Shown one piece after another: positions 1 through 64,000 of a stretch of 64,000 bases of DNA (position 1 is the first letter of the stretch; each line of letters opens with the position of its first letter). The DNA is from Siphonodentalium dalli (lineage: Eukaryota > Mollusca > Scaphopoda > Gadilida > Siphonodentaliidae): positions 132,945,282 to 133,009,281 of the forward strand of contig CP136062.1 in the NCBI GenBank assembly GCA_032622095.1. The letters run 5' to 3'. Position numbers and translations under genes: made by a program. A model generated the notes under the pieces. The model saw only the letters and a list, made by a program, of their open reading frames with translations, did no database searches and had not been told where the DNA came from.

Positions 1-1245
1 ATATTTTTATCTAAGATTTACTAGTAAGTCAAGTCTCAAGACAAGTTCAAAATTTGCATGATCATCTCGTGCAGTCGTGACCCGTGGTCACCGCACTAGT
101 ATCAAGCATTAAGTTAACAACTGATACAGACTACAGTGCTTAAGCAGGTACACATTTCAGTTCAGTTTGATTCTTCAAAGGTAAATAAGTACTAATAGTA
201 TGGTGAAATCTAGAAATGAAACTTGACATCTATGGCCCCCATCATGATCATCGGGCCCATGGAAATTGGAATGGATTAGATTTATTATATCCCGTGGTTC
301 TGTTCGGAGTGCTGAGTAGAATACAGCCAAATCAAATAATAACTAACACCTTTCGGCACGACTCGGGGGATCTTCAATAGTGGGGTCAGTCACTGAGTCA
401 GACAAATTCTCACTTGGCAACTGACATTTTTTTTCAGAACGAACAACTCGATCAAGTCCAACTCGAACTTCGAAGACGAAGGCATACTTCGAGTTTCAGT
501 AATTTACAAATTATGGGCCTCCAGCATTTCATTTACGCTCATGTCTATTTTTAATCGAGTTGTTTTAATGTTTAGTAGAACCACATACAGCTACACATGA
601 GTCATGGACATGAGGGCTTGAGTAATTCGCATTTCAGAATTTCGAGGTATTTACAAATTATCACTATGGCGATCAAGTAACTTCCCCAAGTTAACACAAA
701 TTTACTCACCTTTTTGTCCCATATCTGCAATGGTTTGCTGCCGATGCTATAAAGTATCGACAAAAATCCACTTTGAAACGTATTTTTGAACATCTTGATA
801 TCTAGAATGTGTTGTTTATGTCTAAGTCCAACGCATAAAACGTTGCTGTTCGCCGACAAAGGTCTGCTTTGCTCGATCTTCCAGTTGTCAAGTGAGAACT
901 GCTGCCTGTGTCGCCTTTCTAACCACGTTGTCAAGGACCACTCACAACCGCGTATGTATACACGTTGCTATGCTGGATGGCGTTTAAATATGTATATCAT
1001 TCAAATTAGTTTATTCATATTAGAAACCACTACATATAATAAATGTCTATTTTAATATCACAGAAATCATACGGTTTAATAAAGTTTTGGGAGTCAGTTG
1101 TAAAATCACCCGAGAACTATTTCTTTGAAGTTTTACTTCATGACTATATGAACTTCCGGGTTAGAGGAAGGCAGAATTGACCTTTAGTTACTTAGCGATA
1201 GTAGCATGCCCAAGGAGATGCCTGTCATCTCGTGAATGACTGACA
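1..1245. repeat. Left copy of a >1.2-kb terminal direct duplication
   Basis: This segment matches 62820-64000 in the same orientation almost base for base. The alignment offset is 62819 at the left edge and 62755 from about position 790 onward, because the left copy has a net 64 extra bases. The largest difference is roughly 70 bases present only here, near 210-285. Smaller indels and single substitutions also occur, for example ttgatatctag here and ttgataactag in the right copy. Both window edges cut the duplication, so its full length is unknown. It carries an intact CFAP20 exon 1 (710-793). Confidence 0.93.
710..793 (-). CDS. CFAP20: CFAP20 first coding exon, second copy
   Basis: This is a duplicate of the CFAP20 first coding exon at 63465-63548. 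It encodes the same 28 residues, from MFKNTFQSG to LQIWDKK, and ends at an AAG|gtgagt splice donor. The remaining exons would lie left of position 1 and are not in the window. The exon is undamaged, so this is either the start of a second functional gene copy or the other allele placed here by assembly. The open frame continues upstream to an ATG at 934, but the conserved family start is MFKNTF and the upstream stretch is probably 5' UTR. The 5' UTR differs from the right copy by at least one base. Confidence 0.88.
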
Positions 1246-1490
1246 CACCTCTGTACAGGTGTGTACAATTGTAAACAATGCCACATGTGGCTCGGTTCTG
1301 AATCTTCCGATACCACACCATACAATGCTCATACACAATTAACTTTCTTGTTATACGCCAGATTTTTTTTTTAATGGGACTTATTATCATGTACGTTCAG
1401 CCAGATAAATGAACGTAGGCCTACTTTGTACGTTTGCTTTTTTTTTTGTTCCGGTGATAACTTAATTTAGACTTTAGTTTAGTATGACTG
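1246..1490. other. Intergenic DNA upstream of the CFAP20 exon 1 copy
   Basis: No gene is seen. If the duplication continues past the window edge, this stretch should match sequence to the right of position 64000. Confidence 0.5.
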
Positions 1491-2934
1491 AGGGCCCCTC
1501 CCCCCCCCCATTTTCGTACGCCGGATTCGACCCATTTTGGACCCGTACGCCGGATTCAAGACACAAATTAAGCTGGATTCCGGATTCATGTATTTATATA
1601 AACGGATTCCATTTCGGTGAATTAAATATTGCGATTTGGTTCCTCATTTGGTCATAGGGGCCTATTCATAATACCGGTAGATCATAATATCATGAATTTT
1701 ATATGGGATCCAATCTGATGCACACTCTTTTTGGACTTAGTCCGTATATATTCGTTTGGTATTTGGGTTTTAATTTAGTATTTGGGTTTTCTAACACAGA
1801 GTGCAGGCCGAGACCACGTGTTCGGTGACCGCCGGCCAATTTCCGCTATAGGCTATAGAATAGGGTCCCCCTTTTTTGTTGGGATTTCCTTCCATGTGCG
1901 TCCCCATGTGAGGGCATTGGTAAGTCCAAACTGGTTTTACTGGGATTACTGATCCGGTGCAGGTTGGGTTCGAGTTTGGAGTCCACCCGAGGGTTTTACA
2001 TGTGTTATCACATCGGGGTATTAAAGGTACTCAATCCGATAAAACTCCTCTCAATTATTATTTCAATGGCTTCGGGCGTCAAAAATATTTGATTCGAGTC
2101 GAGGAAGTCACCCATCAAAGCTCAGATCTATTTGTTAGATATCGATTTTAGAAATCTATTATTTTTCATTATCGGGAATTCTTTCTGGCCCAGATGACAG
2201 TCAAAATTTCGTTATTATTACCACTTGATTATAGAGTTATCCATCCTTGTCTGTTTGAATAGAGTTTTGGCGTAAAATCTCGAGCAGGTTACCAAATTGA
2301 CGGCAGTTATTAGTAGGGCCTACTCATCTCGAGCAATTAACAAATTTCAAAAATCAATATCTAATAACTCTGAGCTTTGTTTGATGGGTTCCTCGACTCG
2401 AATCAAATATTTTGTTACCCCCAAAGCCAAAGAAATAGTAATATTGGACCCTCTGATCGGATTGTTGTTGTTGGAATCTGTTGAGATGGGAACCCTCTTT
2501 ACGGATTGAGTACCTTTAATTCTGGGTCAATATATCACGCCCACATAAAGAGCGTTTAATTTATTAGTTTTTACTAGGGAATGTGATAGATCCGTTAATC
2601 CAAGGAAGTCTAGACGCATATTCTATACCTTTGTTACTCTTATCCTAATAGTTTGTAAACTGCCGCAAGGTAGACTGCTCTGGACCTCATTGGTGAAGCT
2701 TCCACTACCGGGGTTCAAGACGGGGGTGCCTTTATATGTGGGACCTGCTCATATATTATGGGTATCACAAAACTAATCTATAATATCATGTAAACTGGAC
2801 GTGAAATCGGTAGGCGGCCCGTAGGCCTATTTGTTTCTTAAACTGGATTCCGGATTCCAGGGTCAATTTGAAGCTAGATTCCAGCTTCATTTTAAAACTG
2901 GATTCCGGACTCAATGGGGGAGGGGAGGGGCCCT
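1491..2934. mobile_element. hAT-like non-autonomous element with GC-rich terminal inverted repeats
   Basis: The element starts AGGGCCCCTCCCC and ends in the inverse, GGGGAGGGGCCCT. It is flanked by 8-bp direct repeats TATGACTG (1483-1490) and CATGACTG (2935-2942), which differ at one base. An 8-bp duplication fits the hAT superfamily. Subterminal regions repeat a 'ctggattccggattc' motif in both orientations. No transposase is visible. A separate TTAA-flanked MITE (2025-2515) has inserted inside it. Confidence 0.65.
2025..2515. mobile_element. TTAA-flanked MITE, copy 1
   Basis: The element is bounded by TTAA at 2021-2024 and 2516-2519. Its terminal inverted repeats read AGGTACTCAATCCG and CGGATTGAGTACCT, with longer imperfect inverted arms inside. 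The same family occurs twice more at 50029-50981. TTAA target duplication is characteristic of piggyBac-type insertion. It has no coding capacity and is nested in the element at 1491-2934. Confidence 0.85.
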
Positions 2935-2942
2935 CATGACTG

Positions 2943-5744
2943 CATATGTTCAAACTGAATGGAATTAAATTTGGTATGTGGCTGTATAGTCCAGTGCATT
3001 TATGGTTTATTCACCTCAAAATAATTGCAACACAAAGTTTCTCAGTGGTAATAAGTACTTTAACCCATCACAAATAATATACTAAAAATCAACAAGAATC
3101 AAGAAATGCGAAATTGATGAATTTTGTGAAATAAATTTGTCAAAATTTGGTAAAATACTCATTTTATAGATTTTTAAGGATGTTTATAAAAAAACTTCCT
3201 TTCACATGTCCTTCCATTTATATAACCATTTTGTAGAGGGCACAATTCTGATTATAGAACAGAAAACCTTTCCTAGATACGTTCAGTATTTTTTGAGTTA
3301 TGTGCCTCCAAAATTTGGAGTTTGTCTAATTTCGGAGGCTCAATTTCTCAAAATTAGTTAAAATCCATTTTTTATGGTATTGTATTTAAAAAAAAAAAAA
3401 AAATGAAGGGATTCCTTGTTAATTAGTCATTTCCTCTCTAGGTTGTGCACAAAATATGATTTCTTTATGCATCTAGCTATGATTGAGAGGACAAAAATAT
3501 TCTTAAACAAAATGTGTGTTCCATCATTGTATGGACAGCCAAATTTGCCTGTGGTCCAGAACCGGTGTTCTGCTTAATAAGTACGTCCTGCCAGATAAGT
3601 CAATATTTCTAATAATAGTAACGTGGATGTATAGCCCCGCCCTCGGAGAAATATCGCTGCAATTACGACATGGTCGTTTGGCGTTGCCTAGTCAATAAAT
3701 TTGTAGTGTATGACGTACTACGCACACCATATCGAAAAAATGCTTCCGTGATCTGATTTTTGAAACGTTTTTACGCGAATAAAGGTTTAAAATCAACTCC
3801 CCGGGCAAATTTCTTCGTATTGGGGACAGGGAATGTGTTTATACATATGGCATCGCTGTTGATAAGAATAAATTCACATTTATGCAATGACTAGACCTAC
3901 CCTAACTTATGATGTCGATTAATAAATATGGCCCATCGATTGCTAATTATGGCAAAATAATTAAATGCTTCTGAGAATTTAGCATTGAATGAGAAAACAA
4001 AGGTTATTACCCCCCCACCCCCCACCACCACCACCATTGTTGATAACTACTGTATTTTTGGCTATATTACATTCTTTGAATGGTCGTATAGGCTATAGGC
4101 TATATTAGCCTATATATAATTATCACGATAACCCCTTCGGTGGCTACATGCATCACAATGAATGTGCATTGATACACAGGAAGAATCACAACCAGTTTTG
4201 AATACGTTACTAAAATGCTTTAACAAATTCGTAACAATGGATTGGTCAAGTACGCTTACAAGTATTAAAGATCCTCCAGAGTTTGATACCGCGCGCTCTG
4301 TAGTCTATTATACTATACAATCCACGGAAACATGCGAATTTCACTGAATCAACCACAACATAATCACAAACTTTGAGTTGGTGGTTATATACTGATGCTG
4401 CTCGTAGTTATATATGAGAGCACACATATCAATATATATAGTGTAGGGCCTACTATATTTGCATTCTTGGCAGCTATAGTGTAAACCATCGATCGAATCT
4501 CCAATAAAGAGCAACCGAGGCGACATCGTGCGAAAAAAAAGTCACTCAACCATGTTCGGTAGCATGCCTACACCTATATATGTATGGATCCCATGCAAAA
4601 TATCCCCTATTCATTTCGTTAACTCCGTGTTTGTGTGACTGTCTGCTGTGGCAGGTGGTTAAGCGTGCCTGTATATAGGCCTTCGCATCCACAAATCCCA
4701 GCCTATATTAGGAATTGATAAGTTGTATATACATCGTTGGTGGATAAACTATATACGTATATGTCTGAGGGATGAACCATTTATATCAGAATCGCGATAA
4801 AGGTTATACGGTGAGCAAACTTATATTTAAAACATATTTAGGCCCTATACATGAACGTGTCTAGAATGTTTCCGTTTTGGTGCAAAAAACTTGGAATTTC
4901 TAAATGCACCACCTTTGATCGAACCAAAATAATTCTCAAAATTGAAGAAAAGCTATATAATTGCACAATGCTATGGCCACATATTGGAAATTTATAATCG
5001 CTAACTGCACACAAACCTATTAGTGTATTGGACTTCAAAGTTCAAACTGTTGATTTTTTTCACCAAAGTGGGAAGGGGAGACACCACGACCCCGTCCCGT
5101 GTCAACGCGTCCGTGCATATACATAACTGATATCGTCAATGCTACTGCATTTTCTCCCCCGCCGCATGCAGCACAAGTTACATGCATGGGGAGGGGGGGG
5201 GGGGGGTCTGTGCTAAATTAATTACTGCATGTTCAACTCAATTGCAGAACATTCTGCAAATAAAATATTGTTTGTATGAATTTATGCGTGGGAAAACGAA
5301 ATACCATTTACGAAAGTAAGTTCTATATGCATTTCTACCCCGCCCCATTTCCACAGAAGAATGCCCATTGCATCAATTTCGAGTAGTGGTTTGGACGACC
5401 CAAGTTCGTCAGTTCTATGTTCTTGTTGTTTTACCAAGAACTCAACGAACCAACAATCGAGTATTCAATAAAAGAGAATTAAACAGCAGGAGGTAGTACC
5501 ATGCCTCTTGGAAACTAGTGACACAAGATTATTTACTGCAGATGTCACTTCCTAAAGAAATGAACTGGAAAATATTTCATTTGACTATACTAAGTTATTA
5601 TAAGTGAGCAATTACTGGTAGCGTGATAAAAAAAATCCCAGACAAAAGAATTTTGCTAATATAAAATATTATCACCTGAGCGCATATTTAGGCCTATGTC
5701 AGAGATAAGCACCTTGAAATTGGAGTTTTCTTTAGTAAAATTAT
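2943..5744. other. Intergenic, no gene recognised
   Basis: AT-rich sequence with simple tracts: poly-A near 3388, CCA/CCCC near 4010-4035 and poly-G near 5190-5206. Around 4640-4700 a weak tRNA-like A-box (TGGCAGGTGGTTAAGCGT) is followed by a poor B-box, perhaps an old SINE fragment. Only short unconvincing ORFs are present. Confidence 0.5.
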
Positions 5745-5799
5745 CTAACTCAAGTTAGAACTCTGACATATATTAATAAAAACTTTTTGTCTGTCTAGA

Positions 5800-6420
5800 C
5801 GACCAAATGGCTGGACCATTGGTGCTAAAAAATGTACACATGGGTCAATTGACCCGGGGAGTGTCATGGGATTGCTGCCATTGACATCAGATGTCTTAAA
5901 AGGACAATAATAATTAATTATACACCCAAAATGGTCGGAATTTTGTAATAAAGATTGCTTCGCATGGGTCAATTGACACGAGATAGGTGTTGTTAACATC
6001 TGATTCAGACGACTTAAAGGGGCATAAACAATTCTAATTTAAAAAATGAATCATATACACAAAATGGTTAGACTCTGGTTGCTGGAAATTGGTATACAGG
6101 GGTAAATTCACCCGGGCAAACTTAAAGGGGAACTTATAGACTATATTATAGAGATGAGCAATTCTTATCAGCTTAAACAATATGTAGTAAAATTGGTACA
6201 CATGGGATCCCATGACTAGGGGAATGTCATGGGATTGGCGCCTTGGACATCAGATGACATAAAGGGATGTTTGTAAATTATGTTAACATAGCTTATCAAT
6301 TAAAAACATTTATCATCTCAGAAGATATATGGGAAAATTGGTACAGAGATAAATTGGGCGTGTCATGGGATAGGTGCCGTTGACCTCAGATGACTCAAAG
6401 AAGTACTAATAATTAGCAAT
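5800..6420. repeat. Degenerate tandem repeat, units of roughly 130-150 bp
   Basis: The phrases 'cacatgggtcaattgacccg', 'gtgtcatgggattg' and 'ttgacatcagatg' recur in order near 5830, 5960, 6100, 6200 and 6340, separated by variable AT-rich sequence. The copies are strongly diverged. The ORFs in this stretch come from the repeat and are not genes. Confidence 0.6.
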
Positions 6421-7227
6421 AAAGAGCGTTTATTATCAACTTAAAAGTAGAGGTAAATTTATCCAGAGTTTCATGCAATATATATGTGATGCTTATCTCA
6501 GGTGACTAATAAATAGTTTAAATGACTGGAGGGGGCACTAATAATGTGTTCATTATTTACCTGAGCAATGCCAGGTACCCTATCTAGTAATTGATACAGA
6601 TATGATGGACTTATTTTTTGTATGGTGGAATGATTAGGTCCCGCGCTGACAGCACCCCTCCTCTCGTGCAAGTTTCCTCACCAAGCAGGTACTCACTGTC
6701 TGATGGCTCTATTTTCATATTATTGTGAAGTGCATCATTGATCTACCATTTAGTAAAGGTATCCCACAAATTTGTCATAAATGTACTTCAAAGCTTCAAA
6801 TATATTACTGTATGCAGACATCTATCCAATTATTGGAGATCCTAACACAGGCTTGTCTTTCAACACACAATTGATACAAACGCTTGCCATTCAAGGCACA
6901 TATCTAAATTATTGTTCCTTCAATACATTGAAACTCCACAAGTACAACAGGGCATCAGATGAATATTTAAACTAAACTGTTTTAAAAATGGAAAGATTCT
7001 TTGCAAACTTCAAGCTTCTGTTGGCCCATCAGAGGAGATACTGTAGGGAATCTTTTTGACCAAACCACTTTGATTTGAAATGGAAGTGTGCGACTAAAAT
7101 ATTGTAATCTGTGGGTAACATCAGGTGTGGTTTCTTCACTGCTTCAAGATTGCTGACTAATATTGATTTGAATTTATAGATATTGGGATGAAATATCTCC
7201 AAATATTGACAGTAGAATTCTTGTCTA
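6421..7227. other. Intergenic, no gene recognised
   Basis: AT-rich unique-looking sequence. A 64-residue ORF at 6781-6975 has no recognisable motif and no supporting splice or start context. Confidence 0.5.
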
Positions 7228-7741
7228 TCTCATATATATTTTGAAGACCTCTGTTTGTTTGTTTGTTTGTTTGTTTGTCTGTCTGTCTGTCATTGATACA
7301 AATCTACGATTCTCGACCGATCGGGACGAAACTTGGTACGTGTGTGTAGTTTGACCGGGCGGTGAACGTTGTCGTATTGGCGAGCCCGTGCGGCGCCCGT
7401 GCAGCGCATGCGCAGACGAGATCTCGGAAACGGGTGGAGCTATCGACTTCAAATTTGCTATGTGAATGTATCTTGCCCCGGATGCGAATTTTATCGGGTC
7501 GCCGAGCCCGTGCGACACCAGCTTCGCGCATGCGCAGACGAGATCTCGGAAACGGGTGGAGCTATCGACTTGAAATTTGGTATGTGAATGTATCTTGCCC
7601 CGGATACGAATTTTATCGGGTCGCCGAGCCCGTGCGACGCCAGCTTCGCGCATGCGCAGACCAGATCTCGGAAACGGGTAGAGCTATCGACTTGAAATTT
7701 GGTTTTTGAATAGCCCGGACAACGTCGGGCTCATCGGCTAG
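7228..7741 (+). mobile_element. Helitron-like element, array copy 1
   Basis: The element starts TCTCATATATATTTTGAAG after a host A and ends in the hairpin AGCCCG...CGGGCT followed by CATCGGCTAG. The TC start, the 3' hairpin and the CTAG end match Helitron termini. The body holds a TTTG/TCTG microsatellite and about two and a half units of a roughly 121-bp GC-rich minisatellite. There is no Rep/helicase, so it is non-autonomous. It runs directly into the next copy as CTAG|TCTC. Confidence 0.82.
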
Positions 7742-8890
7742 TCTCCTATATATTTTGATACAATCTGTATTCGAGAGATAACCCACATCCTCCGGACCTC
7801 AATGATATGATCGTGAATGAGTATTGATATACCCCACTAAACTTTGACAATCACCAGTAATGGTGTGTAGATAATTTACATATCTCTCCTATTATTTTGA
7901 TACAATCTATCTAATTTACATATCTCTCTTATATAACTTGATACAATCTATCTGTTTGTCTGTCATTTATACAAATCTACGATTCTCCACCGATCGAGAC
8001 CAAACTTCCTATCTAGGGGTAAAATCCCACGGACACGGTCGTTGTCGTATTGGCGACCCCGTGCGACGCCCGTGCAGCGCATGCGCAGACGAGATCTCGG
8101 AAACGGGTGGAGCTATCGACTTGAAATTTGCTATGTGAATGTATCTTGTCCCGGATACGAATTTTATCGGGTCGCCGAGCCCGTGCGACGCCAGCTTCGC
8201 GCATGCGCAGACCAGATATCGGAAACGGGTGGAGCTATCGACTTGAAATTTGGTATGGGAATGTATCTTGCCCCGGATACGAATTTTATCGGGTCGCCGA
8301 GCCCGTGCGACGCCAGCTTCGCGCATGCGCAGACCAGATCTCGGAAACGGGTGGAGCTATCGACTTGAAATTTGGTTTTTGAATAGCTATCGACTTGAAA
8401 TTTGATTTTTGAATAGCCCGTCGGGCTCATCGGCTAGTCTCATATATATTTTGAAGACCTCTGTTTGTCTGTCTGTATGTATGTCATTTATACAAATCTA
8501 CGATTCTCGACCGATCGGGACGAAACTTGGTACGTGTGTGTAGTTTGACCAGGCGGTCGTCGTTGTCGTATTGGTGAGCCCGTGCGACGCACGTGCAGCG
8601 CATGCGCAGACGAGATCTCGGAAACGGGTGGAGCTATCGACTTGAAATTTGCTATTTGAATGTATCTTGCCCCGGATACGAATTTTATCGGGTCGCCGAG
8701 CCCGTGCGACGCCAGCTACGCGCATGCGCAGACGAGATCTCGGAAACGGGTGGAGCTATCGACTTGAAATTTGGTATGTGAATGTATCTTGCCCCGGATA
8801 CGAATTTTATCGGGTCACCGAGCCCGTGCGACGCCAGCTTCGCGCATGCGCAGACCAGATCTCGGAAACGGGTAGAGCTATCGACTTGAA
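7380..8890 (+). repeat. 121-bp GC-rich minisatellite inside the Helitron array
   Basis: About nine units are spread over the three Helitron-like copies. Each contains GCGCATGCGCAGA, then GATCTCGGAAACGGGT, AGCTATCGACTTGAAATTT and CCCCGGATACGAATTTTATC. The units are highly similar and much richer in GC and CpG than the surroundings. They create long overlapping ORFs on both strands that are artefacts of the repeat. Confidence 0.88.
7742..8437 (+). mobile_element. Helitron-like element, array copy 2
   Basis: This copy begins immediately after copy 1 with TCTCCTATATATTTTGATAC and ends in a shortened hairpin (agcccgtcgggct) followed by CATCGGCTAG. Its 5' part is longer than in the neighbours, with a duplicated 'ttgatacaatctatct' segment at about 7890-7955. 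Its 3' part repeats 'agctatcgacttgaaattt'. It carries three of the 121-bp units. Confidence 0.8.
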
Positions 8891-8935
8891 ATTTGGTTTT
8901 TGAATAGCCCGAACAACGTCGGGCTCATCGGCTAG
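8438..8935 (+). mobile_element. Helitron-like element, array copy 3
   Basis: This copy starts TCTCATATATATTTTGAAG, like copy 1, and ends with hairpin AGCCCGAACAACGTCGGGCT and CATCGGCTAG before a host T. The array as a whole is therefore flanked by A on the left (7227) and T on the right (8936), the usual Helitron AT target. It carries three units of the 121-bp minisatellite. Confidence 0.82.
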
Positions 8936-10760
8936 TAGGCTCTATAAAAACTGGTAATTTAGTAACACAGCTGGGGGATAATACAAATGGAAACACTTTA
9001 GAAATGACCTATTGAAAGATGCAATTGCCCACATGCCTGTAAATATATTCATTATTGACTGAATGTAATGCAGAACCGCATGCACTGTATCTGTAATTGA
9101 TAAACATCTTGCAATGGTTATTTCATTTATAACACTGGTTATACATTTTGGTATATCTTAAAAGGATAAGATATAAAAATGTCGTTTCATCTCATCGATA
9201 GAGGCAATATTATTTTCATCTCATGCATCCATGAAATGTTGGAAGGTCTTCTCCCCAACTGTTTTCAGAGGCCATATATCCAGGACAATGGAGAGAGAGA
9301 AAGAGAAATACTGTCAAAAATTTTATTCAAATTCGGGAAAAGTCCATAACAACAATATCTAATATGTGCTCTATAGTAGTACATACATGTATATATTAAA
9401 GTATGGAGCTTCAAAGATAAAATGAGAGTTGCACAAAATATTGTATTTAAGAAATGAATAACACACACACAAACCCACTGCATTCATTTCTTTATTTATA
9501 TAGCTTTTTTATTGTTTATTCCCATAAACGAGACCAAAATCACCAACCAAATAAAGTTAAAATTTGTGGCCAATTTGGTCCAACAGTTTAACCTGAAGTA
9601 GGAACATATGCCATTATGGACTGTTGGTTTAAAAACATACATGAGGGAAAAATAAACCAAACTATGAGAACAATTCTAACCTATTTTTTATGTGAACATC
9701 TAATCTACAACTAATGTTATACCAGGCATGAAATTTTCAACTGTTTAAATTTTGATCAAATAGGGGGTCAAAACTCCACACTCCTTCCCTGTTGCCTCCA
9801 ACATTTCCCCCACCCAGGCTTCCTAGAAATCAATATTATTATACCAGTACCAAACAGGATAGAGAGCTAATCTCTTATCTCTGCCCCTATTAGAACATAT
9901 GTGAATCCCCATCTATGAGATCGATTCATCTAGTAATATCAATATACCCCCACTATCCAATAGGGTATGATTTCACCTGGATAAGTGGTGGTTAACAAAA
10001 TAATATTGGGACAGCCAAGTCTGTATTTAGAGTGTCTGACCTCTGAAGAATGAGGTCCACAAAAGGTGAATTTAATGAGTCATGACACTATTCCCCCAAG
10101 GTGGAATAGCACAACGTATTCACCCTCTGGGGATATCATTTCCTAACGAGAGGCCAATCACGACCGACAGATGTTTAACCCATACCTTGGCGATAGCGAT
10201 TAGCTATAACTGATAATTGGTCTAAGATATGATCACAGTAATACATATATCAGTACTTAAACTTAAAATCAAAAGCTCAAATAATTTGTCTTAAGAAGGG
10301 GTTAAAGTATTTGGGGTGGGGGAGGAGTCTATTTAAATCTCATAACTCTGTCCCTATTCACACAATGACCTCTCACTGTGAGATCCAATGGTTTAGCCAT
10401 TAATAAATTTGACAGATAGGATAAACAATTATCCAGCCAGCAGATTGTTTGTCTTTACCTTCATACAACCACCCCTAGAGCTTTGTAACATATGTCACCA
10501 CTTAATTAATAACAGATTTCGCTTGGAATGACATCTATTAAAGGTACTCTCATATACTCTGGATATTGGATGTTCACATGGCAATTTATTGCTATCATTA
10601 TATTACATGCAACTATTGCAATAAAATCTTCATATCTTCAATAAAGGACATCACACCTAATTAATGGTATACAACTAAAACAAATTAGTGTCAATGAAAT
10701 ATTTTTTTTTTAATTAAATATTTTTTTATTATTTAATATAAAAGTTTTTTAATATTTTTT
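8936..10760. other. Intergenic with fragments of a dispersed repeat
   Basis: No gene is recognised. About 9830-10160 shares phrases with 48830-49460, including 'aataatattgggacagccaag' and a palindromic stretch ending 'attcaccctctgggga'. A GA-rich tract lies near 9288-9305. The last 80 bases are poly-T/A rich. Confidence 0.55.
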
Positions 10761-10767
10761 GCGTGTT

Positions 10768-11185
10768 AAATTGAGCGAGGAAATTCAATCTATAAAAGGG
10801 TCATAACTCCTTTAAAATAAATCGAATCAAACCCAAATTCGAACTTGATCTGTATTTTGGGCTGACAATCTCACATACCAAATTTGGTGTCAATTAGTTA
10901 TGGCAGCATGTGTAAATTCTGAGTAAAAAAGGGCCATAACCAGCCCAAACTGCAAAAAAAAAAAACTCGAATCAAACCCATATTCGAACTCGAACTGTAT
11001 TTTGGGCTGAGAAACCTATATACAAAACTTGGTTCCGATCAAATAGAAAATGTTAGAGCTATCGCATTATGCCTAAAGTGTCTACGGACGGACAGACAGA
11101 TGGATGTACAGATGGATAGATGAACGACGAGTGGTCAATCCGGACATTGACACTATGTGTACCATACTATGGTATAGGTACACAT
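10768..11185 (+). repeat. Dispersed degenerate repeat, family A, copy 1
   Basis: Two imperfect units carry 'cataactcc', 'atcaaaccca(t)attcgaact', 'gatctgtattttgggctga' and 'acaaaa(t)ttggttc'. A GGAC/GACAGATGGAT-rich tail follows, then 'ggtcaatccggaca' and a hairpin (TACCATACTATGGTA, about 11160-11176). Family A recurs at 11745-12298 and inverted at 44225-44700. It is non-coding. Confidence 0.75.
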
Positions 11186-11744
11186 AAAAAGTTTTATCTC
11201 ATGCAGAGTACAAGAAAAATGTATCAAAGTTCAAACCTGTTGTGCCTTTTTAATATTTCTATTCACATTTGTAATCAATTGAAATCAATGTCGAAAAAAC
11301 TTTCCATTAATATCTAAATAAAACAAACTAGACCTACAGTTCTAAAAGTGTTTTTAATAATTATTTTGTTCTCATAGACTGACACAGAGCTCTCAAGTTT
11401 TAAAAAATTTGAAAACCAAAGTTGTCTTCCCATGCAACCAACAAATCTACTAAACACAATCACATTATTAACCCCCAATAGTAATGCTATTAAACAATAA
11501 AACCAGATTATGCCTTTAAGATGAAATTTAAATAACCATGCATATAAAATATAAAAGCATAAACATTCCATCAATGATATCTCATCATATGGCCAACACA
11601 TCTGCTAGCAGTTAATTAACTCAATGCAAGAGAGAGTCATTGTCACTTTATACTATCTCTGTTGCTCAATGTGAGAAGACAACTTCATGGCATTGTAAAC
11701 CTGATTTATTAGATTCTACCTGGACAGTGCAAACTGTGTATCTT
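11186..11744. other. Intergenic, no gene recognised
   Basis: AT-rich sequence with a 95-residue hydrophobic minus-strand ORF (11314-11601) that has no start context or homology I recognise. I treat it as chance. Confidence 0.45.
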
Positions 11745-12298: not shown

Positions 12299-12302
12299 AT
12301 AT

Positions 12303-52301: not shown

Positions 52302-52526
52302 TTATAACGAAATCGTTGTCTGCCAGATTTTGGTGTGCTTTGGTATGGGAAAGACCAGCATGGGTGAATGGATATTCACGCCATCATGCGTCGATGCATT
52401 GTTTTTTTTCCAACTATATCTGTCATGGTCCTTGGTCAACTGTCCATATGAACGTCTTGCATTATATTTTATACATGAGCATTGCTTGTCAGATTACATG
52501 TCATTCTTTGATATTCTGATAAACTA
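52302..52526 (+). repeat. Dispersed repeat X, copy 2
   Basis: Matches 45122-45315 with one extra segment near 52393-52440. The MITE at 52527 inserted at the TA that ends this copy. Confidence 0.75.
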
Positions 52527-52739: not shown

Positions 52740-53039
52740 TAGCACATACAGAACAAAGATATCCATATATATATATATAGAGATTATTTTGTCCAAGCAT
52801 ATTATTACACTGATAACAGTTATGACACATGGTAGGCAATAACAGGCATGTAATTAAGCATTGTAATTAATGTACTCTCATCGGTGTAACACTGTCATAA
52901 CATGCCGTGAGAGGCATTTTCATGTCAGGTTTTGCACCAAGTCTTGTTAAAGTTATATGAAACACTCTGCTACATGTTTCAATTCTCGAATGGAATAATC
53001 ATCCTAAAAGCAGCTCAATGTAGTATTCCTAATATCCCA

Positions 53040-53550
53040 TAACTGCTCCGTGGGGATCAAACAAATATTTTCCGACCTCAATTTACTCACCCCCCCCAAA
53101 TATGGTTCAAGATACATAATCTGATTCTATGGTCCCGGCCTCATCCAATTACAACAACGCCATTTCACCAAAAGCAAATTTAGTTATCCAAATTAGTTTA
53201 TTACCAATAAATATTCACAACAACACCAATCACGATATCATATTTTCGTAAAATTCCTACAATATAACTGTTTTTCTTGGCAGTTTGGAGGTGAGCGAGT
53301 ATGGTTTACAACTTCCAAATTAATTTGGGTCACACATGATCTCTCATAATGGCATCTGCCCATGTCCACTATTTCTGCGGAATTTTTGCAAGACCACCAA
53401 CTATTCCAGGTGGTGAAAAATAACAGATTTCAAAATTCGAAATCTCATAACTCAAAAGCTTTGATGGGTGGGTTCCTTAACTCAATACAAAATGTTTCCC
53501 CCCCCTAAATAAATAGTAATTTAGGGGCATTAAATCTTTAAGACTTGGAA
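53040..53550. repeat. Diverged relative of the TTAA-flanked MITE
   Basis: 'gctttgatgggtgggttcct', 'taactcaatacaaaatgttt' and 'aataaatagtaatttaggggc' resemble the right half of the 50029-50981 elements. The left half has 'gggatcaaacaaatattttccgac'. Ends are eroded and no TTAA pair was identified. Confidence 0.45.
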
Positions 53551-53779
53551 ATTTCATGCCGTTATCATCAGTTGGATATTTCACATCAGTAATTGGTTGA
53601 AACTCTGCTTATAGTTTTGATTTTCCAACCAGTATTTAATGTGAATTTTGTTTTTAGATCAAAAGTAGCATATTGCCCTGCTTTCGGTAAAATATTTACT
53701 ATATATTATAGCAAACCAAAATTCCCGGAGCCCTGTTAAACTACTAGTAGGCAATCAGTTGGGAAATTTCCAATCTTAA

Positions 53780-54825
53780 TGGTAGTCCACGTTTCATTTG
53801 GCATAAACCAGCTTGTGATATCTGTAAGAATATATACTGTTTTAGTATGATAGTATCTATCCAGGGCTACAGATATCACTAGATCATGTCATGAATCTCT
53901 ACTCAGGCTAATGCCTGTAGAGATCATATTCCACCAGCACAAAACCTGGGAACTTTTTGAGGTTTTGACAGGGAACCTTATAAAATAACACGGGGAATAT
54001 ATTTCTTTGTTATTATCTATTTCTTAATAATGTACTTCACTGTAGGTGAAGGTCCCAACTCGAAATTTCATAATTTAAGTGACTTTGTGAGCAATTTTGC
54101 ATTGCGATTCATACAATTATGGAATTTTTCCTGGGTAATTAATTGAATGTTTATTTCGAAATCGGCTCTCAAAATTCACAGAAAAGCATGCAATTTTAAG
54201 TTGGGACCTTCGCATATAGTAAAGTACACTTTTAAGGAACAGATAATCATTAAAGACATATTATGTACTTGTTCGGGTGCGTTAAACTATTAAGTTAGTA
54301 TTCAGGCACTATGTCAACAGGAGGAATGTAGCATTCTACTATATCATCGAAAATTCAAGCAAATCGACCGTACCACTCCATACAAAACATCATGTGAACT
54401 ACGCTCAATTGTAAATATTTACTTCTCGATTCGGGACGCAACTATCGGCGATAAGTAACGAAAACAATTTCGCTATCGTGAGTCACTAAATTTAATTAAT
54501 ACAAAATAATGATGGCGTACATTGCCAGTTTGGATTTAATATTTGTAAAAATAACTACTTTGAGCAATATTATCCATTTCTTTTTTATCACCCTACCGGA
54601 GTGCTTCACATCACTTTAAGAAATATATTCCCGGTCTTATTTTTTCGACTTTAGAAGGTTCCCTGTCAAAACTTCAAAAAGTTCTCAGGTTTTGTACAGG
54701 TGGAATATGATCTCTACGGGTGTTAGCCATAGTAGAGATTCATGGCATGATCTACATATATCACAAGCTGGTTAACTACAAAGGAAACTACGACTTTCAT
54801 TAGTTAGGAGCTTGATCTGGTCCGG
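53780..54825. repeat. ~1.05-kb foldback element with two further elements in its loop
   Basis: Left arm about 53780-53995 and right arm about 54620-54825 are inverted ('ccagcttgtgatat', 'catgaatctctact', 'gtagagatcatattccacc', 'ttttgacagggaacctt'). The loop holds a MITE with inverted ends (GTACTTCACTGTAGGTGAAG at 54032, inverse ending about 54230) and the repeat at 54245-54575 that is the inverse of 35735-36070. The left arm also has a ~50-base insertion ending 'gctacagatatc'. Confidence 0.72.
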
Positions 54826-54829
54826 GTGC

Positions 54830-57437
54830 AGATGAAAATCCAAGTTGACACCCCCATCCAATGGCGACCCTCTAGTGCCTCTACCCATTCCCTGACTACT
54901 AATTAGTGAATATCCAGTTATCAAGATGTTAAATGTAGACTAGTGTAATTTAATTTAACTTTGTTGCACAAATCAGTTGAGATTAAGCATAAATTTTGCA
55001 GGTCATACTGATTCAAGCTATTGAATCAGCTAAAAATCTGAGTGGTATGATCATCACTTATATGGACGGCTTTTTCACAATTATTCATATTAAAGTTAAC
55101 TTGAGTGCAATTGTATTGATCAATTAATTCAATTGTGCATAAGTGGAATTACTCACAACTGACCCTAATTGTATTTACACTATTTCAGGCTTATTTTGTA
55201 TTGGTATTACACAACAAATCTTTGCAAATATCCAATAGAAATGTGAACTGATGTAAAAAGGACTTGAAATCATGTTCAGCCAAATGTGTTAAGTCTCATC
55301 TGTTTGGGCATTGGCACTGGAAGAATTAAACACAATTTTTTTAAGCCATAACAATCTTCCACTCCCAGATATACATTTGGACCATACTAGTAATCAGGAT
55401 CAGCTATCTGTTTTGCTACAATTACTGGGTTTTTTTTTTTCAGTGGAAAAATTATATATTAACTGGTCCCAATAAATTAATTTTGTTCAACTACATGTAT
55501 GTCAGAGCAGAATAATTTTTGACTGAATTTCAAGACTCAGTTGACCACCAATTCTGGTATGAAATAGGGTTTATCCTACAATTGCTAACTTCAGCATAGT
55601 GTGGAGTACTTCAATTTTAATCAGATCCCCAACATAAAATGAAAGAAATGGTGAACGTCATTTCAGGAAAGACTAAAATTATTCACACAAACAAGGACGG
55701 TTGTCCATATATACACATTAAGTTAACTTAACACGCAAAAACTACCAGTCCAATAAAGGTGTTGTTGGCTTCTTGGTGATGACATTAGGATAAGAAATTC
55801 AGACAATACCATACTATAATATGCCATATTGTACCAATATCCAAAGGTGATTCAGTTTGTCATGAGCTCTGTCATTGCATCAGTATAACCCTTTCTTAAC
55901 TAAATACAAATACTCATTGATGAGTAGTTCAAATTGTTCAGATAATTAATAAATTCAACAACATTTGTTGAACTTATTATCTGAACATTTACCACCAATG
56001 GATAAGAATACTTTTGCATTTGTATTATCTGTTCAGCTGCCTGTTGTTTAATTTTATTTCCTGAACATACCTCCAGATGAATAATAGACCATTCTAATGT
56101 ATACATCTGCCTGTCTGTTTGCTTTTAGATGATAACTTTAGCTAGTCTCAAGTCAACTGAATGGAATGAAATTAAGTATTTACTAGCACAAAATACAGGT
56201 CAAGTTGAACTGATCAAATTCTGGTTCCGCCCGTCAATTTTCACCTGAGTTATGGCACTTTGTTGGAATTACCACAAGCGTATTTTGTTCATGCCCCAGC
56301 GATGCTCTTGTTAAGCCTAAACTTTTTTCCTCCAGGCTTCAAGAAAATCTGTTATCCATCAATGTTTATTTTGTACCCATGTATAGTAATTACAAATACT
56401 CGTTTTATATATAAAATGCAGTAAAAAACATAGAACTCATGGGAATATAATAAAAATTTATGTTTTGTGACAAGTGGATTTACACAGATGAATGTAGATA
56501 CACATTGCAATTTAATAACCTTAACTTCCAACTAAGAACAAAACAAGTTTCAAGAGGAAATTCTTAACAAAATAACAGATACTTAAATACAAAATTGTGG
56601 AAGGACAGCAATAATTGACCTGAAAACAGAATTAACCCTCACCATCCCTTCTTCAAAATCTAATCTATAAATTCCCTGAATCAAACAGTAATTTTGTTCA
56701 TGTACATTTGTATACTATGGCATTCCTGCTGCCAATCACTAGTCAATTTTGAAAACTTTAGTTGATGAAACTTCAGTTACTTAGATATTTCTGCATGGAC
56801 AATGATGTTTCTATAGTGAAAATGATGCACTGCCCGAGTTTTAGACAATGAATATTTTGTATAATGTAAAAATCTCTTATAACACAGACACACAAATCAT
56901 TCATTCATTCAATGGTGACAGACAGTTCAGATGAAATGGTCACTTTCATTGAGTGATAAAAAATTATCTAGAAGTTAAGAGTCATATATGTTTCTTTTGA
57001 GAACAGAAAAAAAAAATTAGCATGGACTAAACCTTTCTTTAATGAATACTCATTGACAAGTACTTCCCTCAGGAAATGTTCAGTTAATAAGTCCGACGAA
57101 CGACTATTGGCCATAATGTTTTTTTTTAGGTATTTGGAATGTTACTTTTAACAGCATACTAGTGTTCAACAACAGAACAAAATTATTTCAGCGTGATAAA
57201 TACTACCACAGCTTGCCCTCTAATTTTATATCAGCCTAAGTAGAGTCTTAGCTGGAATAAAATAAGACACTAGAAAAAAGTTTTCAAAAGTAATATCTCC
57301 TTAAAATTCTAGAACTTCATAAAAATCAAATAGATAGAGATATCCTCAGAATGTCCTGTTTTAAGCACTAGATATAACTCCTTCATTCCAACGCTTGGCA
57401 TATACATGTATAACATCCAGATTTTTGATGATAAAAC
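54830..57437. other. Intergenic, no gene recognised
   Basis: AT-rich, apparently mostly unique. It lies downstream of CFAP20 on its strand. Small ORFs show no recognisable motif. A short inverted repeat ('caacaacatttgttg', 'gttcagata'/'tatctgaac') lies at 55935-55986. Confidence 0.5.
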
Positions 57438-57443
57438 TTTATT
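57438..57443 (-). terminator. Candidate polyadenylation signal of CFAP20
   Basis: TTTATT reads AATAAA on the minus strand, about 200 bases beyond the CFAP20 stop codon (57646-57648). Confidence 0.5.
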
Positions 57444-57645
57444 CTTTGACACATGAATTCCAATTTCAACTGATAACCTGATTAGAGAACATGGAATGTC
57501 AAGGCTGAGACAGGAAAGCAGGCACTCTTGTCTTGTATTCAGATGTAGGTTTCCAACTTGAATCTTCAATTTTCCCAGTTTTGATTCAGAAAATGTCATA
57601 TATACAGATGAGTTTAATTGTCTTAATTCATAATCACATTTCGTC

Positions 57646-57753
57646 CTACTTTTTCGTGACAGGTAAATACAGTTTGAATTCTGCTGGTAGTTCGTCTTCT
57701 GAATAAAGTCTGTCTGAAAAGTACACTCTCCTGATTCGACAGTTAGCATGGAT
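57646..57753 (-). CDS. CFAP20: CFAP20 exon 5 with stop
   Basis: Acceptor ttgctttcag|ATC. 35 codons from [20 protein letters not shown] to YLPVTKK, then TAG at 57646-57648. Confidence 0.95.
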
Positions 57754-60700
57754 CTGAAAGCAAAATAAAGAGAAGAATGCAATAATTCCATTTCAAATGA
57801 TGGAAATTTGGCCAATAAAGAAGCAATATAGACAATGTTCGCATTCCCCCTACCTATACACATCATACTAATTAGTAAAAACAGTACCCTTATTTATTTT
57901 CCACACTAATTTAGTACTAGTTTCCTTCAATGTACCTACCCATGAAGTTTAAAATTAATTTCTAATTGAAATGGAGGACACATTAATATAATGTATACAG
58001 TATAGAACAAAAACCACGAGGCCCAAAGTACATGTGGGAACTAATTCGGTGACAATATATTTTGATGGATGCCAGACATAAATATCATGTAAGGCTTCTA
58101 GGGACAGTTCAATTGCTAAATTAAATTGATGGCAAAGTCAACGAAATCTCACCTGTACTCTGAGTGTTTCGATGTAGTTCGTGCCATATGCCCTACGTGT
58201 GAAATCTGACAAGTTGAACTGAATTTGATTCCATCCGTCATCCAGTCTCATTGGCATAGTACAAATAAACGGCTTCACCCTTGTCGTACTCTGGTAGTTA
58301 CTTGCTCGGAATCTCCTTCTGACATTTTTGTCATCTAAGACCTGTGGAAAAAGTTACAAATTAATACAAAATGATTTCAAGATCAATTCAATCACATAAC
58401 ATTATTCATCAAGGACAAGCTGTTGAACTCAAATAATCCAATTATCTGACATTCCATAAATCAGGTCAATATCCAAACATGTGGCACTAAATCAGCTGAA
58501 CATATGCATGTAAATATTTGTTTCAAGAACACATTGAGCCCACAAAACACATAAAATAATTTTCAAAGATTTAAAATTAGAGGGGAGCCAAATAGGCAAA
58601 TACTAGTCTATGGAATGAGTAAATAACAAAAAAAATGAGGAGAGGGAACCATTCATTATCTGTTCAATAAGAAGAGGGGCCCAATGCCTTCACAGCGGGT
58701 AAATATACCAACAATTATAAAAGTCTCCAAAAAGCTCACCATCAAGAAGAATGTGGAGAAATAGATCAAATTTGTTCCTATAATCTTTATAGATAGTTCA
58801 CCAAAAGAAATTTTACATGTTGAATCCATTGAACATAATGTAAACAGAACTGTTACAGCTATTTGTAAAAAAAACACCACTATCCGCATAGTAAGTTATA
58901 ATATTTTAATATGATTTTCCGAAAAGTTTTTAATGCTTTGATGCTTCCAATGGTTACAATCCAGTTTTGATTTATAATAAACTTTAAATAGTATTTAATG
59001 AACTAATTGGACTTTGACCGGTAATATCATTGTAATAGTAACACTTACATAACAATGAGTGAATGACTTCGATATGCAAAATATTGTTATTGGAGTGTCA
59101 TAATAATAACAAGAGGTGGCATCAGAGATGCTGTGTCTCGTTTTCGGTGGCTTACCGCCGGTGGCTACCGCAAATTGGTGTGCATCAGTATGGGTAGACT
59201 AATTAATAGGTAAAATCGGTTAATATTTGTTCAAGTTATCGCGCCAACGGCCTCAAAATCGCGAAGAATTCACATACTAAGGGGCATAACTCAGGGGAAA
59301 AATTTCGGAGAAACCCGGTTTTCGCACTCTTTCGAGATATTGTGCGAAGCAAGCCACACACCAAAAATTAATATAATCGGTTAATATTGTTCAAGTTATC
59401 GCGCTAACGGCCTCAAAATCAAGAAAATTTTGCAAACTGAGGGGGATAACTCAGAGAAAAAAGATCGGACAAACCCGCTTTTCGAACTCGTTTGAGATAT
59501 TGTGCCAAGAAAGTCATGTACTGGTACCAAAATTTTTTAATCAAATCGGATGACGTTTGTTGAAGTTATCGCGCTAACGAGCTGAAAATTCGTGAAAAAT
59601 GACTAATTAAGGGCCATAACTCTATCAAATTTTATCGGACCAGACCGGTTTTCGAACTCGTCCGAGATATTCTTGGGAGACACCTATATCGCAAATTTCA
59701 ATCGAATCAGATAACGTTTGTTGAAGTTGTTGCGCTAACAAGACTAAAATCAGTGAAAAATGGCAAAGGGCCATAACTCTGTAAGAAATGTGCGGACAAA
59801 CCCGATTTTTTGTCAGCAGCTTACGTGCATGGATATGTACTCACACAGACACACACCAAAAAAAAAATTAATCCGCCAATAAACGGTTGAGTTATAAGCA
59901 AAACACGCCGCCCGCCCACCATCAAACTATAAACTTGTCGAGTTTTGGAAAAAAACTCGACTAAAAATAGGAACAAACCCTGGTATCTATTTTACAAGAA
60001 CATGTTGATGATTGTTGTTTTACAGTATACCGGTACACGGAGTCTTCTATAAAATTTATGTTATTGTGCATAAATCAATTTGAAGGCCTCAAGCCACTTT
60101 AACATACCTGAACTTCAAATGTGAAATATTTCTTCAAATTCTTTATGATCATCACCAAGAACGGCAGCTTGATGCCTAACGTCTTCTTTGGATCAGCTGG
60201 ACATGTGATGAATGTGGTACTGGAATTAAAATAAGAAGGAATATTGAACACAATGAACAGATCATGTACAATTGTCATCTGAGTTTCACAATTTTATATG
60301 GATAGAAGTACCCAGGTACGGTGGGCTGACTTAGTAGTAAGTTCAATAACTGGGGAGGACTATGGTAAGTATGGTCCATCCAGATTCATGACACGATCTA
60401 AGGCTGTTCCAATTGATCTCCTGTCCAAAAAAAAACATGGCATGGTTGGCAATAATGAAAACTAAGATGAAAAAAACATAAGAAACTAACAACTGATACT
60501 ATTAGCGGAAAATATCGGAAGTGTTGCCAAATCATGAATCATCGTCTTACTCAAACAGACTTATCCTGAGAAAAAAAATGCAAAGTATACAATGAGAATG
60601 TGGGATAATATAATTAACATACGGCTAATACACACCTAACATTTGTTCCAACAATTTCTAATACAAGTGACTGGATATCGTTGTCTGTTATTCTCTTTAT

Positions 60701-63548
60701 GTGACCATTCCGCACCTACAAAAGGAAAAGTAAGACATAGTAATTTTATTCATCACAAACAACTAAGTGACTCCAATTAACTCAAATTTACTAAAATGTC
60801 AGTAGTAGATAAGACAAAAAGCCTTTTCAAAGCCAGTTTCTGCAATTTATAAGATGCATTGCCGAAAAATCATGGGTCTATATTGAAAAAATGCACAAAT
60901 GAGAGCAGAATTACAGACTACATGTATCCTGATTTGTACCAATTCTTGACAAAATTATAGTGTCAGAAATCACAAGTCACGTTGGAACTTTGATAAATTT
61001 TACTTTTTCTTTACATAAAAGGATGAATTGCACCGTGATTTACTAGAATGTGTCAAACTGTCATGATGCAAGCTCACTTGAAGTTGAAAAGCCTTCATGA
61101 CACCAAAGAACCGGGATTACTAGTAGTAGTATTTAGTCAACAACAGTGCTCACATTAAGTGATGTTTCGTTGATCATTGATTGATCAATCACTTCAATGT
61201 CAGGGTTTCCGTTAGTACGGCACAGCGTCCGTAGGACGGCCTCATTCCCCTCGCAGATGATCTGTTTGATTCATACATGTACCAAAAGTCAGCAGCAATA
61301 CAGCAATATGTCATAACAAATTTGGACTGCAACGCGAGTTCGGGGGTTAAACAGAATACTGGTGAAAAAGCGGTCCATTGAGCACAGTGTGTTACGGTAC
61401 ATCATAAACCTTTGAAATCAAAGCGCCAAAACTGCAACGTAATGTTTGATGTACATTGGAATAGCGACGTTACCGTATATACAGCGTAATAATGTCGCGA
61501 TAACATCAAAGAATGCAGGACGACTGAGTACGGATATTTTTGTTCACGTGATTTGCGAGGTTGAAACTACTCACGCTCGGAGATCCCGTGCTATCGTACA
61601 ATTACATAATTTGATCAAAGAATGCCGAATTGCTGAGTTAGGCAGAGTGGGATCAACATACACCAAAAGGCGGTTCTCCTTAAATTCTCCTTGCCAGGTA
61701 TTATTGGTCATTATACATGTACCGTACCATCATAAATTTGTAAATACTGTGACTTGTAGCTTGTTCATTTATATAGTCTCAATCAGACGTAATTGCATGC
61801 GTAATTACATGATTAATTATCTGGATCAACAGAATTAATGCACCCACGGAAATTATCGACTTGCGTAATATACGTATAGCTTTGGATTGCTTTGTGGGAC
61901 ACTCAGGTGCAAGGAAATTGCTACTGTTTATTGTCAAATAACAAAATTTTCGCGTTATGTGTTTTCCCAATACGGACTCATTAATTTTCCCTTGGCGGAA
62001 ACACTGACTTCATGGTAAATCATGAAATAATATTTTAAAACGCCAAGAATTAAAAAATAAAACAAAATTCAAATGTCACCGAGTCGGTGAACAACAATGC
62101 AGAGTACCGTAACTCAGTTTTCAGCAATATGCTAGACACTCAAAGCCATATGACAATCTGCGAACAAGATATTACTGAGTATGATAGACAGAGTGGCAGC
62201 CCTCATAATTGGCTACGGCAATCAGCAATGCCGAAGCCATTTGCCGAAGTAAATGGACCCCACATCAATGGTTGCCGTAGTGGATTGCCGAAGCTGAAAA
62301 ACCTGAATTATGAGGGCTGCTCAGTGGCCATATAAATGTATTATTTTATTACAATATTTATTATCGGATATCCACCCCATCCCATTATAAAAATAACCAC
62401 AGTGACATTGTTTCACAAACTCAAATTATTTCTACCTACTACTACTAGTACGTACCTGATTATTGATCAATTATGAGATCATTTTAATGCAGCTAATGTA
62501 ATACTAATAGGCCTAATAAGTTTTTTCTTCAATAAATTTGTTCTATTTGACATTTGTTGTTGTTATATTGTCTAATATTTAATATTGTTGTGTTTTTAAT
62601 TTTTAACTCACTTTATTATGTTAATTGTGATTTAATTCAGCAATTTCAGGTTTAGGTCAATCTAAAATACTAATGTTTAAACAAAAAAAGATCAAGAACA
62701 AATGTCCGAAAAAGGCATAATATTATATTATAAATTATAATAAACTTAAGCAAAAATGATCACATAATAAAACAAGAGTCGACTCAAGACTTTAAAAAAA
62801 GACAAGTTCTGAAAATCAAATATTTTTATCTAAGATTTACTAGTAAGTCAAGACAAGTTCAAAATTTGCATGATCATCTCGTGCAGTCGTGACCCGTGGT
62901 CACCGCACTAGTAATAGTATCAAGCATTAAGTTAACAACTGATACAGACTACAGTGCTTAAGCAGGTACACATTTCAGTTCAGTTTGATTCTTCAATAGT
63001 AAATAAGTAATAGTATGGTGAAATATTATATCCCGTGGTTCTGTTCGGAGTGCTGAGTAGAATACAGCCAAATCAAATAATAACTAACACCTTTCGGCAC
63101 GACTCGGGGGATCTTCAATAGTGGGGTCAGTCACTGAGTCAGACAAATTCTCACTTGGCAACTGACATTTTTTTTCAGAACGAACAACTCGATCAAGTCC
63201 AACTCGAACTTCGAAGACGAAGGCATACTAATACTATGATACTTCGAGTTTCAGTAATTTACAAATTATGGGCCTCCAGCATTTCATTTACGCTCATGTC
63301 TATTTTTAATCGAGTTGTTTTAATGTTTAGTAGAACCACATACTGCTACACATGAGTCATGGACATGAGGGCTTGAGTAATTCGCATTTCAGAATTTCGA
63401 GGTATTTACAAATTATCACTATGGCGATCAAGTAACTTCCCCAAGTTAACACAAATTTACTCACCTTTTTGTCCCATATCTGCAATGGTTTGCTGCCGAT
63501 GCTATAAAGTATCGACAAAAATCCACTTTGAAACGTATTTTTGAACAT
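57646..63548 (-). CDS. CFAP20: CFAP20 (Bug22/GTL3), five coding exons
   Basis: Encodes cilia- and flagella-associated protein 20, a microtubule inner protein of axonemal doublets and centrioles that supports ciliary stability and motility. The coding exons are 63465-63548, 60636-60715, 60108-60219, 58153-58341 and 57646-57753. Joined they give 573 bases, or 190 residues, close to the usual ~193. All junctions have GT/AG and keep frame. The product follows the family from [20 protein letters not shown] through [40 protein letters not shown] and [16 protein letters not shown] to [19 protein letters not shown], ending in PVTKK rather than a longer basic tail. The identity is very secure because this protein is extremely conserved in ciliated eukaryotes. 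The start is the conserved MFKN; an upstream in-frame ATG at 63689 is probably in the 5' UTR. Intron 1 contains transposons. Confidence 0.96.
58153..58341 (-). CDS. CFAP20: CFAP20 exon 4
   Basis: Acceptor tttccacag|GTC. 63 codons from [20 protein letters not shown] to [15 protein letters not shown], with donor CAG|gtgag. Confidence 0.95.
59150..59975 (+). repeat. Dispersed repeat, family E, copy 2, in CFAP20 intron 3
   Basis: Lies in the intron between exons 3 and 4. Five units of about 140 bases carry 'gttcaagttatcgcgc(c/t)aacg', 'cataactc(a/t)g', 'cggacaaacccg(c/g)ttttcgaact' and 'gagatatt'. It ends 'cgcccgcccacc...cttgtcgagttttggaaaaaaactcgactaaaaatag', a hairpin (GTCGAGTTTT/AAAACTCGAC). 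Confidence 0.75.
60108..60219 (-). CDS. CFAP20: CFAP20 exon 3
   Basis: Acceptor ttaattccag|T completes the serine codon, then [20 protein letters not shown] and [17 protein letters not shown], with donor CAG|gtatg. Confidence 0.95.
60636..60715 (-). CDS. CFAP20: CFAP20 exon 2
   Basis: Acceptor ccttttgtag|GTGCGG, then [20 protein letters not shown] and IVGTNV. It ends after two bases of a serine codon at AG|gtgtg. Confidence 0.95.
61201..62006. mobile_element. hAT-like element in CFAP20 intron 1
   Basis: Starts CAGGGTTTCCG and ends CGGAAACACTG, a pairing with one mismatch typical of hAT ends. Flanks are TTCAATGT on the left and ACTTCATG on the right. These are similar only if one base is shifted, so the target duplication is eroded or absent. 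The 130-residue plus-strand ORF inside (61446-61838) has no recognised domain. Confidence 0.55.
62197..62319. mobile_element. 123-bp MITE in CFAP20 intron 1
   Basis: Ends CAGCCCTCATAATT and AATTATGAGGGCTG are perfect inverses, and the interior is partly palindromic (ctacggcaatc / ttgccgtagtgg). Flanks CAGAGTGG (62189-62196) and CTCAGTGG (62320-62327) match at six of eight bases, suggesting a worn hAT-type 8-bp duplication. Confidence 0.72.
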
Positions 63549-64000
63549 CTTGATAACTAGAATGTGTTGTTTATGTCTAAGTCCAACGCATAAAACGTTG
63601 CTGTTCGCCGACAAAGGTCTGCTTTGCTCGATCTTCCAGTTGTCAAGTGAGAACTGCTGCCTGTGTCGCCTTTCTAACCACGTTGTCAAGGACCACTCAC
63701 AACCGCGTATGTATACACGTTGCTATGCTGGATGGCGTTTAAATATGTATATCATTCAAATTAGTTTATTCATATTAGAAACCACTACATATAATAAATG
63801 TCTATTTTAATATCACAGAAATCATACGGTTTAATAAAGTTTTGGGAGTCAGTTGTAAAATCACCCGAGAACTATTTCTTTGAAGTTTTACTTCATGACT
63901 ATATGAACTTCCGGGTTAGAGGAAGGCAGAATTGACCTTTAGTTACTTAGCGATAGTAGCATGCCCAAGGAGATGCCTGTCATCTCGTGAATGACTGACA
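62820..64000. repeat. Right copy of the terminal direct duplication
   Basis: Matches 1-1245 in the same orientation and is cut by the window end. It contains the end of CFAP20 intron 1, exon 1 (63465-63548) and about 450 bases upstream. A segment of about 70 bases present near 210-285 in the left copy is absent here. A short 'actaatactatgat' insertion near 63228-63241 is absent from the left copy. Confidence 0.93.
63465..63548 (-). CDS. CFAP20: CFAP20 exon 1 (coding part)
   Basis: 28 codons, MFKNTFQSG to QIWDKK, with donor AAG|gtgagt. The bases before the ATG (atcaag) give an A at -3. It is duplicated at 710-793. Confidence 0.95.

Follow-up and report, generated by a model that had tools for sequence, protein, structure and literature searches.

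Four marks of a false duplication are named by Ko et al. (Genome Biol. 2022; PMC9516828), namely a gap between the members of the pair, half read depth, discordant reads and one-copy k-mers. The locus described here resembles the heterotype form, as it is outlined in that source, on three points. Its two copies lie on the same scaffold with a gap between them (29109-29208); they are near-identical and directly oriented, with a whole gene doubled; and the differences between them are allelic rather than error-like (0.63% substitutions, empty insertion sites and synonymous-only coding changes). It differs in that the overlap would here be masked by a transposon of ~30 kb, which lies where the contig of one haplotype ends. 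The described transposons closest to this element are the Ginger1 DNA transposons, which, in the account of Bao et al. (2010; PMC2836005), have a full length of 2.6-7 kb, a 4-bp CCGG or CCGT target duplication, a 5' end of the form TGTNR, inverted ends of about 40-270 bp and a Gypsy-integrase-like transposase.

Read at face value, the assembly would mean that CFAP20, a deeply conserved ciliary gene, underwent a lineage-specific duplication together with an ankyrin-repeat/SOCS-box (ASB-like) gene. Comparison of the sequences indicates that the two CFAP20 copies are very probably a haplotypic (heterotype) false duplication, in which alleles were joined at the gap, and that the haploid genome most likely has one CFAP20 and one ASB-like gene.

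Extent and divergence of the repeat

The window is a stretch of 64,000 nucleotides, C2:132945282-133009281 of a nine-chromosome, 2.227-Gb genome (N50 of 264 Mb, computed from the nine contigs). A flank of 100 kb was added on each side, and the resulting 264 kb was compared with itself. In the numbering used, 0 is the position just left of base 1 and negative positions lie in the left flank. The first-pass annotation had described 1-1245 and 62820-64000 as near-identical direct copies, and a collinear, high-identity alignment was indeed found: 283-1245 matches 63024-64000 at 98.4% over 977 columns with 2 mismatches, and 1-209 matches 62820-63024 at 91.6% over 215 columns, where 2 mismatches are accompanied by gaps. 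A 73-bp block between these two aligned stretches is present in copy 1 only. The repeat is thereby confirmed, and it is larger than had been stated. Copy 1 extends from -37539 to 3565 (41.1 kb) and copy 2 from 29240 to 66810 (37.6 kb), in direct orientation on one chromosome.

1..3565, plus strand: right-hand part of copy 1 (putative haplotype A), collinear with 62820-66810 at 97-99%
29240..64000, continuing to 66810, plus strand: copy 2 (putative haplotype B) within the window, from the flank self-comparison and alignment

Chance or generic repeat similarity was ruled out by the single collinear chain of ~40 kb in the 264-kb self-comparison. There is no third copy of 1-1245 among the matches listed genome-wide (68 candidates, best 40 scored, 50 matches). 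The other listed matches are dispersed repeats of ~100-130 bases at up to 84%; several more span 33 bases at 97%, and two have 69% identity.

Over 13 aligned blocks, the copies differ by 221 mismatches in 35,227 aligned bases (0.63%), a count that leaves out copy-specific insertions and tandem-array stretches not alignable one to one. The same blocks contain 58 small indels with a total of 465 bp, and at least eight larger segments are present in one copy and absent from the other. The earlier remark that the differences are mostly indels is true close to the ends of the window; over the whole repeat, 221 substitutions stand against 58 small indels. The density of SNPs does not discriminate strongly between alleles and paralogues and is not relied on here: the dispersion index in 1-kb windows is 6.83 when raw, mostly from clustered differences, and 1.66 after clusters are collapsed (p 0.009), which is weakly overdispersed.

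That one haplotype was assembled twice through sequencing errors, a homotype false duplication, is exceedingly improbable. Such an origin would account for the near-identity, for the gap between the copies and for the single-base indels (19 of 58), some of which lie in homopolymer runs, but 32 of the 58 indels are 4-39 bp long, no non-synonymous change was seen in the coding sequence compared, and the private transposons described below have clean target duplications and are not error-like.

CFAP20 and the ASB-like gene in both copies

CFAP20 exons were located by tblastn, with a human CFAP20 sequence as the query. The coding features of the two copies are as follows.

707..793, minus strand: CFAP20 exon 1, copy 1 (tblastn; genome-wide protein search)
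-2716..-2618, minus strand: CFAP20 exon 2, copy 1 (tblastn match extent)
-3322..-3200, minus strand: CFAP20 exon 3, copy 1 (tblastn match extent)
-5370..-5173, minus strand: CFAP20 exon 4, copy 1 (tblastn match extent)
-5869..-5762, minus strand: CFAP20 exon 5, copy 1 (tblastn match extent)
63462..63548, minus strand: CFAP20 exon 1, copy 2 (tblastn; coding comparison)
60617..60715, minus strand: CFAP20 exon 2, copy 2 (tblastn match extent, which overshoots the exon end)
60105..60227, minus strand: CFAP20 exon 3, copy 2 (tblastn; 1 synonymous difference from copy 1)
58147..58344, minus strand: CFAP20 exon 4, copy 2 (tblastn match extent)
57649..57756, minus strand: CFAP20 exon 5, copy 2 (tblastn match extent)
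37489..38508, minus strand: copy 2 of the 340-codon ASB-like frame (ankyrin repeats, SOCS box)
-29748..-28729: ASB-like open frame, copy 1

An intact exon 1 had been noted in each copy, and the two (707-793 and 63462-63548, minus strand) are identical. Exons 2-5, which had been predicted to recur left of position 1, gave tblastn matches there. CFAP20 is complete in each copy, with five exons and identical translations, and a single change, synonymous, separates the copies in the 615 nt compared. When the protein was searched against the whole genome at E 0.001, ten exon matches were returned, five per copy, and no other CFAP20 was found. The ASB-like frame, for which the ankyrin/SOCS-box domain assignment was run on copy 2, differs between the copies at two synonymous sites over 1,020 nt. 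For both genes together there are 3 synonymous changes and no amino-acid differences in 1,635 coding nt compared; since the coding changes are synonymous only, both copies look constrained. Scans of the window for tRNAs and Rfam families gave no match.

These observations bear on a second alternative, a genuine tandem (segmental) duplication of recent date, at least 38-41 kb long, that took in CFAP20 and the ASB-like gene and has its junction within the unsized gap. Intact genes in both copies and direct orientation on one chromosome are in keeping with such an event, and the divergence and private transposons are also expected of a young paralogue pair. It would, however, have produced two redundant genes, yet an amino-acid change is found in neither.

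Boundaries of the homology

Three features occupy the interval between the copies.

3566..29108, plus strand: giant transposon, 5' part of 25.5 kb, copy 1 only, inserted at CCGG 3562-3565
29109..29208, no strand: 100-N scaffold gap between two contigs, the sole N run in the 264 kb
29209..29239, plus strand: opening 31 bases of the right contig, T-rich and made up of T and A only

The gap is exactly 100 N long and lies where it had been reported. In the right contig, 31 bases precede the start of homology between copy 2 and copy 1. Those first bases (29209-29239) are unmatched in copy 1 and in 38 other listed repeat copies, save at most the last 5 bases, and all 39 other listed matches to 29209-29400 begin at query position 27-37 (275 candidates, best 40 scored). 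Neither the T-rich contig start nor a similar T-rich run was found in a search of the left flank. The stretch is probably contig-end noise, the alternative being a small insertion. On the copy-1 side, position -37539 falls within a dispersed repeat, and 26 other listed matches extend across this position without interruption, so copy 1 has no breakpoint there.

The right boundary is of a different kind. The sequence of 3566-29108 is collinear, in pieces of ~97-99% with insertions or deletions between them, with C3:10957115-10981547, and it also aligns with a copy on C6. The C3 copy spans C3:10957115-10986715 (29.6 kb), and by comparison with it the left contig stops ~5.2 kb before the far end of the transposon. 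In the C3 and C6 copies, one end reads CCGG-TGTTCTGCTTAATAAGTACGT and the other its inverse followed by CCGG, and the inverted ends align over 53 columns at 85%. Copy 2 has a single unoccupied CCGG at 66807-66810, with unrelated flank beyond. All 41 other listed matches to 3500-4000 begin at 3550-3563 with 95-100% identity (912 candidates, best 40 scored). They are spread over all nine chromosomes, and the first 440 bp of the element is 95-100% identical across them. Exact matches to the family's 3' end number 28 genome-wide (0 for a reversed control pattern), and 12 of the 41 listed 5' ends pair with such an end in the same orientation, 25.9-38.7 kb away. Copies of 36.9 kb and 38.7 kb lie at C6:191816631-191853509 and C9:5050733-5089429. 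At this locus the exact-pattern search, which would miss a diverged end, gave no occurrence, which suggests that the left contig breaks off within the transposon. Judged from these alignments, the end of homology at 3565/66810 is a transposon terminus and not an anonymous breakpoint.

The sequence right of 64000 had been expected to repeat 1246-29108. It does so for 1246-3565 and no further, because 3566-29108 is a transposon in one copy and an empty target site in the other. Against 66811-164000, this segment gives scattered repeat matches only, those of at least 300 bases being 69-94% identical. Among scattered matches at 83-94%, 10145-12299 and 22330-23089 match the right flank at 134044-136050 and 138214-138974, which perhaps represents an older relative of the giant element.

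Homology that starts at a contig edge and ends at a transposon terminus facing an empty site, with a gap between the copies, is the pattern of alleles. We infer that the two copies are alleles and not paralogues, and we propose the following order of assembly events. The diploid animal would carry two alleles here, 0.63% apart and distinguished by several transposon insertions. Haplotype A would have a transposon of ~30 kb at the CCGG, ~2.8 kb upstream of the CFAP20 start codon; its contig would run from -37539 to 3565 through CFAP20, enter the transposon and end within it at 29108. The haplotype B contig would begin at 29209, carry the same two genes to 66810 and continue past the empty CCGG into flanking sequence. 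In scaffolding, the one contig would then have been placed after the other, separated by 100 N. When a contig ends in a large heterozygous transposon, its tail no longer resembles that of the other contig, so an overlap-based purge that expects alignment to both contig ends would presumably miss an artefact of this type.

The joining of haplotypes at the gap had been raised in the first-pass annotation as one of two alternatives, and with exons 2-5 repeated and the CCGG site empty it fits better than a segmental duplication. It has a cost. Because the left contig is not collinear with the right one over its final 25.5 kb, a heterozygous transposon insertion must be assumed in addition, and this tail counts against alleles, as do the unmatched first 31 bases of the right contig. 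A tandem duplication faces the difficulty that no junction is visible: the homology ends at a contig end and at a transposon terminus with an empty site, and a gap interrupts the interval. That gap would have to contain the missing end of the transposon as well as whatever remains of copy 1, and in addition the junction itself and the beginning of copy 2. We consider a tandem duplication unlikely.

Transposon families at the locus

In addition to the giant element, there are six further sites at which one copy carries an insertion and the other is clean and empty. Copy 1 alone carries four of these insertions, of which three are TTAA-type and the fourth has a target duplication of 8 bp; the two sites filled in copy 2 alone are both TTAA-type.

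About -10367 and -2147: 469-bp TTAA elements, copy 1 only; empty sites in copy 2
-19104: 592-bp TTAA element, copy 1 only; empty site in copy 2
-18254: element of 1,143 bp flanked by a target duplication of 8 bp, copy 1 only; empty site in copy 2
50029..50981, plus strand: pair of neighbouring short transposons of 480 and 469 bp, flanked by TTAA, copy 2 only; empty site in copy 1 at -13031..-13028
About 64394: single TTAA element, copy 2 only; empty site in copy 1

Identity to the reference member is 97-100% for most of the private 469-bp TTAA elements and ~90% for a member of the family common to both copies (2025-2515 / 65266-65758). On the whole, shared older insertions and private younger ones fit two recently separated lineages. 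The private insertion at 50029-50508 is just 92% identical to the 469-bp reference, near the level of the shared older member, and this counts against the copies being alleles; its identity to a copy at 78898-79386 is 99.4%.

The giant element is, as far as its sequence indicates, an abundant TIR transposon family of ~26-39 kb. It shares with Ginger1, as that group is described by Bao et al., the CCGG target duplication (seen on either side of the C3 and C6 copies), TGT...ACA ends and inverted ends whose length, 53 bp, falls within the range of 40-270 bp. Its fifth base is C (TGTTC) and not the R of TGTNR, its 12 two-ended copies measure 25.9-38.7 kb as against 2.6-7 kb, and no transposase was seen in the one copy read whole. 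On account of its length, its fifth base and the lack of a transposase in the copy read, we have not filed it as Ginger1. The C3 copy, read end to end, contains no long reading frames (the longest between stops is 122 codons), and the longest frame in the window part of the element, 152 codons, lies inside a tandem array at 7228-7683. We put at even chances the proposal that this is a young, high-copy and apparently non-coding family, moved in trans by a Ginger1-like integrase and still segregating between the haplotypes of this animal. A review of giant transposons (PMC6431247) by its own account concentrates on excess coding capacity. We found no comparable non-coding giant element in the literature covered, which consisted mostly of titles and the beginnings of abstracts and included few subscription journals, and we do not claim that such an element is unpublished.

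Several minor observations concern these families and the scaffolds that carry them. Two giant copies stand head-to-head on C6, 34 bp apart (187476142-187505490 and 187505525-187531586). Over 391 columns close to its final base, C3 matches window positions 28645-28266 (reverse) at 94%, so this scaffold ends in a repeat that is found inside the giant element of the window; C3 begins with TTAGGG-type telomere repeats. Members of the 469-480-bp TTAA family lie at -2147, -10367, 50029, 50513, 64394, 72238 and 78182, and three of them (64394, 72238 and 78182) are 100% identical within about 14.3 kb. The family has apparently been active recently. In the right flank, a 507-codon open frame at 156484-158004 (plus strand) has a modest Pfam match to Pox_A32, which is packaging-ATPase-like (E 4.4e-06), and we presume that it may come from a Maverick/Polinton-like element.
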